From: Thermoanaerobacter sp.
Lineage (GTDB): Bacteria > Bacillota > Thermoanaerobacteria > Thermoanaerobacterales > Thermoanaerobacteraceae
Assembly: GCA_014896455.1 (NCBI GenBank)
Contig: JADBKJ010000008.1
Location: 1 to 64,000, forward strand
Direction of reading: 5' to 3'
DNA: 64,000 nucleotides
Part shown: piece by piece, positions 30,672 to 30,791 of the stretch
How positions within the stretch are numbered: the first letter of the stretch is position 1
How the letters are laid out: the number at the start of each line of letters is the position of its first letter
Notes under the pieces: model-generated
What the model was told of the DNA's origin: nothing
What the model saw: the letters and a program-made list of their open reading frames with translations, nothing else
The model's database searches: none
Translations under genes and position numbers: made by a program

Positions 30672-30791
30672 GTACCTGATATAGCACACTATACAATATT
30701 TCAGCTTATTATATAACAGGTATTTATAGGGTGTATAACAGACCGCATTAATTTAGATTTTTGCTTTTATTAAAGCTATATAACAGGTACA
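30672..30791 (-). promoter_or_regulatory. Repeated TATAACAG boxes upstream of PFOR
   Basis: TATAACAG occurs at 30712, 30734 and 30779, two of them extended to TATATAACAGGTA. An inverted relative, TGTACCTGATATAGC, begins at 30672 and mirrors GCTATATAACAGGTACA ending at 30791. These may be regulator sites or parts of promoters for the PFOR gene. Confidence 0.45.

Follow-up and report, generated by a model that had tools for sequence, protein, structure and literature searches.

The PFOR gene, its predicted promoter and a cluster of repeated boxes

The window analysed here, a stretch of 64,000 nucleotides from a genome that we refer to as G000, carries on its minus strand the gene for a single-chain pyruvate:ferredoxin oxidoreductase (PFOR). 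This gene is preceded by a cluster of short repeats, here termed boxes, each of which reads TATAACAG on the plus strand and CTGTTATA on the strand of the gene. The features of the region are as follows, with distances counted from site 0, the element at the predicted -10.

27076-30603, minus strand: PFOR gene, single-chain (NCBIfam TIGR02176, 2040.9 bits; cut-off 911)
30603-30601, minus strand: ATG start codon of PFOR, standing behind the Shine-Dalgarno sequence
30611-30620, minus strand: Shine-Dalgarno sequence AGGAGAGGAG, recognised by its sequence and aligned across the ten genomes of the genus
30604-30790, minus strand: predicted transcribed 5' leader with boxes 1-3 and site 4, placed from the -10
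30671-30678, plus strand: right arm TGTACCTG of an inverted pair, overlapping site 4
30676-30683, plus strand: site 4, the fourth half-site CTGATATA, in inverted orientation and some 125 bp from site 0
30712-30719, minus strand: box 3, CTGTTATA, 89 bp from site 0
30734-30741, minus strand: box 2, CTGTTATA, 67 bp from site 0
30779-30786, minus strand: box 1, CTGTTATA, 22 bp from site 0
30784-30791, plus strand: left arm CAGGTACA of the inverted pair, overlapping box 1
30797-30808, minus strand: site 0, the predicted extended -10, GTGTGGTATAAT in the window, with 3 mismatches to the box
30807-30797, minus strand: predicted extended -10 TGTGGTATAAT of PFOR, within site 0
30820-30825, minus strand: possible weak -35, TTTTAA, 17 bp before the -10

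The extended -10 motif TRTGNTATAAT is retained in all 19 PFOR upstream regions read from the window's family, and the putative weak -35 sits in an A/T-tract that is kept across the genus. Transcription of PFOR would thus be expected to start about 7 nt past the -10, near 30790. An earlier note on this DNA had described the array as upstream of PFOR; because the extended -10 precedes the boxes, they fall behind the predicted promoter, at the expected start of transcription and within the predicted 5' leader. At the position of site 0, a second genus of the family and more distant loci have CTGTGATATAAT, CTGTTATACT or a near form, while site 4 is part of CTGTRCTATAKCAG in the remaining nine genomes of the window's genus.

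The three TATAACAG boxes of the earlier note all lie where it had put them, and their clustering is far beyond chance. The 64-kb window holds nine exact copies against 3.14 +/- 1.65 expected, a number equalled in 1 of 100 shuffles; three same-strand boxes within 75 bp arose in none of 200 dinucleotide shuffles made from the window, and shuffling the 300-bp region 20,000 times never gave as many as two copies. The inverted TGTACCTG/CAGGTACA pair is likewise present, starting one base earlier than had been noted (30671, not 30672), and is reported by a repeat search with 14-base arms of 93% complementarity. Taken alone it is within chance expectation in AT-rich DNA (704 of 3000 shuffles of the region contain a 9-base inverted pair 60-130 bp apart), which makes it weak evidence of regulation in itself.

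Some neighboring features of the window may be recorded here. A run of nearly 30 T (30991-31018) stands before a divergent HD-domain gene and is followed by a perfect TTGACA-17-TATAAT promoter (31035-31063), and an ORF at 25093-25506 resembles the terminal part of a group II intron reverse transcriptase and is probably a remnant.

Conservation of the array in the genus and family

We compared ten genomes of the window's genus, nine of a second genus of the same family, and 20 of the family in all. Within the window's genus the region aligns easily throughout. In the second genus conservation is confined to the boxes and, to a lesser degree, the -10 region. Between nine sequences of the window's genus and seven of the second (G000 and G017 were excluded as the pattern did not fit them), the boxes are 98.6, 98.6, 86.1 and 84.4% identical and the 21 bases that precede box 1 are 69.9% identical, as against 36.2, 38.5 and 42.2% for the three spacers, the lengths of which nevertheless differ by at most one base. 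In 17 of the 20 genomes of the family the exact three-box pattern has a single occurrence, at PFOR; the misses are G003 with degenerate boxes, G010 with no array, and G015, in which the contig starts inside the gene. The reversed pattern, used as a control, is absent from 37 genomes, and a single extra match, in G035 of another family, falls inside a 422-aa ORF on a different contig from its por operon. A profile search of 23 loci (PFOR paralogs, other oxoacid-oxidoreductase loci and the PFOR of G010) gave no match at E <= 1 within 1500-bp flanks, outside which some operon starts may fall. Among 80 PFOR loci of a contig collection, some of them with little upstream DNA (one base in L100), Thermoanaerobacter wiegelii and one MAG contig matched, with a third at E 0.86.

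Within G000 the three-box array occurs once. A search for the array, with part of the single boxes also checked, found no second array near fermentation genes, and the other exact box pair of this genome (C19:111612) lies inside a 363-aa ORF. The full palindrome CTGTTATATAACAG, allowing two mismatches, is found at 16 places in G000 versus 18 for a reversed control; leaving out PFOR and one other, 12 of the remaining 14 are inside ORFs of at least 70 aa and two are between ORFs, neither of these two adjoining a recognised fermentative gene. An extended form of the box has 88 matches in the genus, about 15 of them at PFOR, versus 68 for the reversed control, and paired boxes with up to two mismatches number 62 in the ten genomes versus 48 for the control, with ten of the 62 at PFOR. 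Several of these pairs recur in more than one genome of the genus, and of the four places in G000 two besides PFOR were checked, one being inside an ORF and the other intergenic. Hence, there is little excess of the box beyond PFOR in the genus. The earlier note had named as its refutation the lack of a second occurrence near metabolic genes of the genome together with a lack of conservation in relatives, and of these two only the former holds.

Recurrence before oxidoreductase genes beyond the family

A sequence-only profile of the array (R1) was run over 37 genomes of the class. It recovered PFOR in 18 of the 20 genomes of the family (E <= 5.1e-21), 12 of these being members of the profile. 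The next matches are in G035 (5.7e-7) and G036 (8.2e-5) of the other family, in both cases before a porC-D-A-B operon. The best NCBIfam scores in the G035 operon are just below the cut-offs (PorA 535.3 bits against 550, PorB 368.2 against 405). None of the weaker matches checked in the class (E >= 0.0014) is at ferredoxin-oxidoreductase genes; those at L295-L297 stand at phoU- and protease-type genes, judging by their translations. The four-subunit por architecture of G035 and G036 differs from that of the single-chain gene, and the array therefore follows function, not gene descent.

With G035 and G036 added, the profile (R2) was applied to a sample of 398 genomes of the phylum and matched 24 of them at E <= 0.01, 16 of which are outside the two training families. 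The best seven of these 16 (G263, G346, G279, G325, G162, G366 and G114; E <= 1.8e-4) all precede genes for pyruvate or 2-oxoacid:ferredoxin oxidoreductases, and among the other nine (E 5.8e-4 to 0.0096) only G302 does. The eight distant loci comprise five operons of the porC-D-A type, as recognised by translation and mutual BLAST (PorA of L335 and L336 scores 518.2 and 534.5 bits against the cut-off of 550), one single-chain PFOR above the cut-off (2040.1 bits), and two other 2-oxoacid:ferredoxin oxidoreductases with an alpha-subunit well below every cut-off, to which the models assign no substrate.

As to gene neighborhoods, the oxidoreductase operons in several of L329, L333 and L335-L338 follow dnaX-ebfC-recR-like genes, and the PFOR stretches compared from the window's family have other neighbors. 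The first gene behind the array, ahead of the 2-oxoacid:ferredoxin oxidoreductase, encodes in two loci (L329:7193-7861 and L333:15052-15756) a product of about 222-234 aa, the L329 copy of which has no NCBIfam match at E <= 1e-20.

A shared layout of the sites

The ten array loci outside the window's family, G035 and G036 among them, all have a box with no more than one mismatch at the predicted -10. In nine of them, L318 being the exception, a TTGAC-type -35 is seen by eye 17 bp before this -10. From this -10 box, a forward box follows at 20-23 bp in nine of the ten and at 64-68 bp in six, and a reverse box at 94-96 bp in five and at 119-126 bp in five; the largest departure from this common layout is L321. 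When 13 loci chosen to be non-redundant were counted together (leaving aside G003, G006 and G008), half-sites with at most one mismatch were present at centers 7, 29, 74, 96 and 126 in 11, 11, 8, 9 and 5 of them, as against a highest count of six at any center in 500 circular-shift runs, with the proviso that the distant loci were found by a profile already holding the box positions of the family, such that selection accounts for part of their common spacing. Only the two loci of the window's genus lack a box at center 7, site 0 there being GTGTGGTA with more than one mismatch. At center 96 two of the 13 loci have the forward half only, five the reverse half only and two both; the forward half at 89 in the window's family and the reverse half at 95 together make up a single 14-bp dyad. 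The distance from box 2 to box 3 is 22 bp in the window's family versus 19 bp in that of G035 and G036.

A probable operator at the predicted start of transcription

We consider it likely, from these sequence comparisons, that the array is a conserved multi-site DNA operator for a candidate regulator encoded at an unlinked position. It has the conserved sites, the fixed spacing and, outside the window's genus, the overlap with the predicted core promoter that are expected of a multi-site repressor operator. The cooperative binding of a regulator put forward by the earlier note, with Rex set aside, is the best-supported reading, in view of the conserved boxes and spacing, the diverged spacers and the recurrence at non-orthologous por operons, with binding itself being what these patterns suggest.

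We posit that a dimeric DNA-binding protein, encoded elsewhere, would recognise CTGTTATA half-sites of the loose 14-bp dyad CTGTTATATAACAG. Its sites would span from the -10 element to the first 120 or so transcribed bases, with centers about 22, 67, 89 and 119 bp behind site 0. Once bound to site 0 and the stretch directly after it, the protein would keep RNA polymerase from initiating or from escaping, and the more remote sites would contribute cooperativity, through contacts between sites spaced by some two helical turns. The regulator is probably a repressor, since such binding at site 0 and behind it would block the polymerase, making repression of PFOR/POR the most likely outcome. These genes would then stay repressed until a metabolic signal, which we would guess to be tied to pyruvate or reduced ferredoxin, releases the protein. 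The half-sites in either orientation at center 96 would also suit a DNA dyad better than an RNA motif. Against an operator count the change from 22 to 19 bp between boxes 2 and 3, which would turn the helix phase, the lack of a box match within one mismatch at site 0 in the window's genus, and the little excess of boxes outside PFOR. The comparison of neighboring genes, which brought up no common transcription-factor gene, and the favorable folding of leaders in two families also count against it.

The main competing proposal is a structured RNA leader, either riboswitch-like or mRNA-stabilising, in which box 1 or box 3 pairs with its inverted copy and the resulting fold controls the PFOR mRNA. 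Among the leaders of the two families, 13 of 14 fold better than most of their spacer-shuffled versions (0-19 of 200 shuffles as good at 37 C, and likewise at 65 C), the exception being G003, for which 87 of 200 shuffles are at least as good. In an alignment of 13 sequences, box 3 and its inverted half are paired in 97.1% of cells and box 1 and its inverted half in 96.2%, with covariation scores matched by 1 of 500 and 4 of 500 shuffles, respectively; however, the paired box bases hardly vary, making the covariation test weak. The leader of G017 (L040) has, by eye, paired changes relative to other leaders of its genus in a long helix outside the boxes, and hints at a real fold in that genus. 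Beyond the two families, L313 folds well (1 of 200), but in seven of eight loci the folding with the boxes held fixed is not clearly above chance (29-151 of 200). Further, the leaders fold in dissimilar ways between genera, with no one fold common to all carriers, and an Rfam scan of 30000-31700 yielded no fitting family, the one match being at chance level (23.2 bits against a gathering score of 70). Site 0, for its part, overlaps the predicted -10 and would remain untranscribed, and the orientation varies at one center. Because the folds differ, seven of the eight arrays outside the two families fold no better than near chance, site 0 lies before the predicted start and the orientation varies, we rank the DNA operator before the RNA element and regard the latter as rather unlikely on its own, though the two could both be partly true in the window's family.

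PFOR/POR forms the passage by which these anaerobes proceed from glycolysis to acetyl-CoA, hydrogen, acetate and ethanol. An operator that follows the function of the enzyme across gene architectures would indicate specific control of this step. It is about an even bet that this reflects a dedicated regulator of pyruvate:ferredoxin oxidoreduction, kept across several families and acting on single-chain PFOR, four-subunit POR and a further 2-oxoacid enzyme by way of a common set of sites that extends from the -10 to the leader, which replaces Rex in some lineages. The array would also serve as bait for finding its regulator protein.

Candidate regulators and other readings of the boxes

No recognised transcription-factor gene is common to the seven stretches from the window's family and the ten array loci whose neighboring genes were compared, eight of these genes having been scanned with Pfam and the remainder assessed by the opening residues of their translations. 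Among regulators encoded elsewhere, the first candidate is CcpN, the HTH_11 and CBS repressor of gluconeogenesis, whose operator consensus is TRTGHYATAYW. This resembles TGTTATAYW, and by eye its core TGHYATAYW fits many boxes; a literature search found the consensus in no open-licence paper. CcpN is encoded in G000 (NF053704, 323.2 bits against a cut-off of 260), adjoining a yqfL-type gene and the beginning of a gene resembling ppdK, and is present in nine of the ten genomes of the genus, G008 having only a fragment, as well as in G035 and G036. However, none of the nine genomes of the second genus was found to have an ortholog (best E 4.1e-4, for the HTH part only), though eight of them carry the exact array, and the ccpN promoter of close relatives has TTGTGATATAAT in place of CTGTTATA. 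The proposal that CcpN is the general regulator was rejected on its absence from the second genus, and we judge it improbable.

The ccpN locus has a repeat of its own: before ccpN-yqfL in G000 (C30; L203) two copies of TTGTGATATAAT are found at 1360-1371 and 1411-1422, 51 bp apart. Both copies are exact in six of 11 ccpN loci; one copy has one base changed in G003 and G006, G007 has one changed copy, G035 has none, and G036 is without upstream DNA. This may possibly be an autoregulatory pair.

Response regulators of the LytTR family, to which some pyruvate-sensing systems belong, recognise direct repeats with a spacing of about 21-22 bp. A regulator of this type would account for the 22-bp spacing of the direct repeats, and each of the 20 genomes of the family has one or two LytTR matches. 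Nevertheless, in a comparison of lengths and scores no single LytTR type appears common to all array carriers, G010 has LytTR without the array, and the sites of the array are in both orientations, unlike LytTR direct repeats. As no universal type was seen this candidate was set aside, and we hold it to be very improbable.

A reading of the boxes as serial -10-like elements of sigma-A, forming tandem and antisense promoters, has some appeal in that CTGTTATAAT is an extended -10 and box 3 of the window's genus runs into TATAAT. In the loci read, however, the T at the last -10 position is kept at site 0 only, and box 1 is followed by CA, TA, GC, CC or TC in many of them; with site 0 alone fitting, this was rejected and has only a very slim chance of holding.

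Finally, Rex is a regulator with a record at such genes. Excerpts of the literature describe it as controlling POR in Caldicellulosiruptor bescii, with sites that lie on or behind promoter elements in the core operons of its regulon, POR among them (PMC8579813), and report a DAP-seq peak for it at the PFOR complex genes of C. thermocellum (PMC8457756); in the retrieved text of a paper on Rex in Thermoanaerobacterium saccharolyticum the terms pfor and Tsac_0046 are absent (PMC5886521). The Rex half-site TTGTTA is one base from CTGTTA, but with TTGTTA-N6-TAACAA at shuffle level in 21 of 22 array sequences (best 3-4 mismatches), and the two-mismatch match of L318 reached by 4 of 100 shuffles, no such palindrome was found at the promoter, and the chance that the array is a Rex operator is negligible. 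The earlier note had seen no Rex consensus here, and indeed the best Rex-type match in G000 has four mismatches and is no better than in shuffles.

Comparison with known systems

In the titles and abstract openings of the open-licence literature no description of the array was met, which is no proof of novelty; Rex is the sole controller of PFOR/POR genes that appeared there, and among the matches listed for the literal box sequence none is relevant by its title or abstract opening.

Like structured 5' leaders and riboswitches, the array lies mostly in a predicted leader that is stably folded in some lineages; it differs from them in having no common fold and no Rfam match, and in that its first site is upstream of the predicted start. 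With the operators of CcpN, which excerpts of two papers present as a carbon-flux repressor (PMC7028823, PMC3616900), the comparison is to gapB and pckA of B. subtilis and to ppdK, ccpN and fbp of the Lactobacillales.

Going by their consensus, these share with the array AT-rich boxes near TG.TATA(C/T)(A/T), but the target gene is another one and CcpN was not found in the array-bearing second genus. LytTR sites resemble the array in their direct repeats about two helical turns apart, whereas the array has sites in both orientations and its carriers no universal LytTR type. At POR operons the Rex sites, too, overlap or follow promoter elements. The array is nonetheless a cis-element distinct from the Rex operator: the latter is one palindrome with N6 between its half-sites, and the former combines multiple half-sites, or dyads of 14 bp, at fixed spacing.
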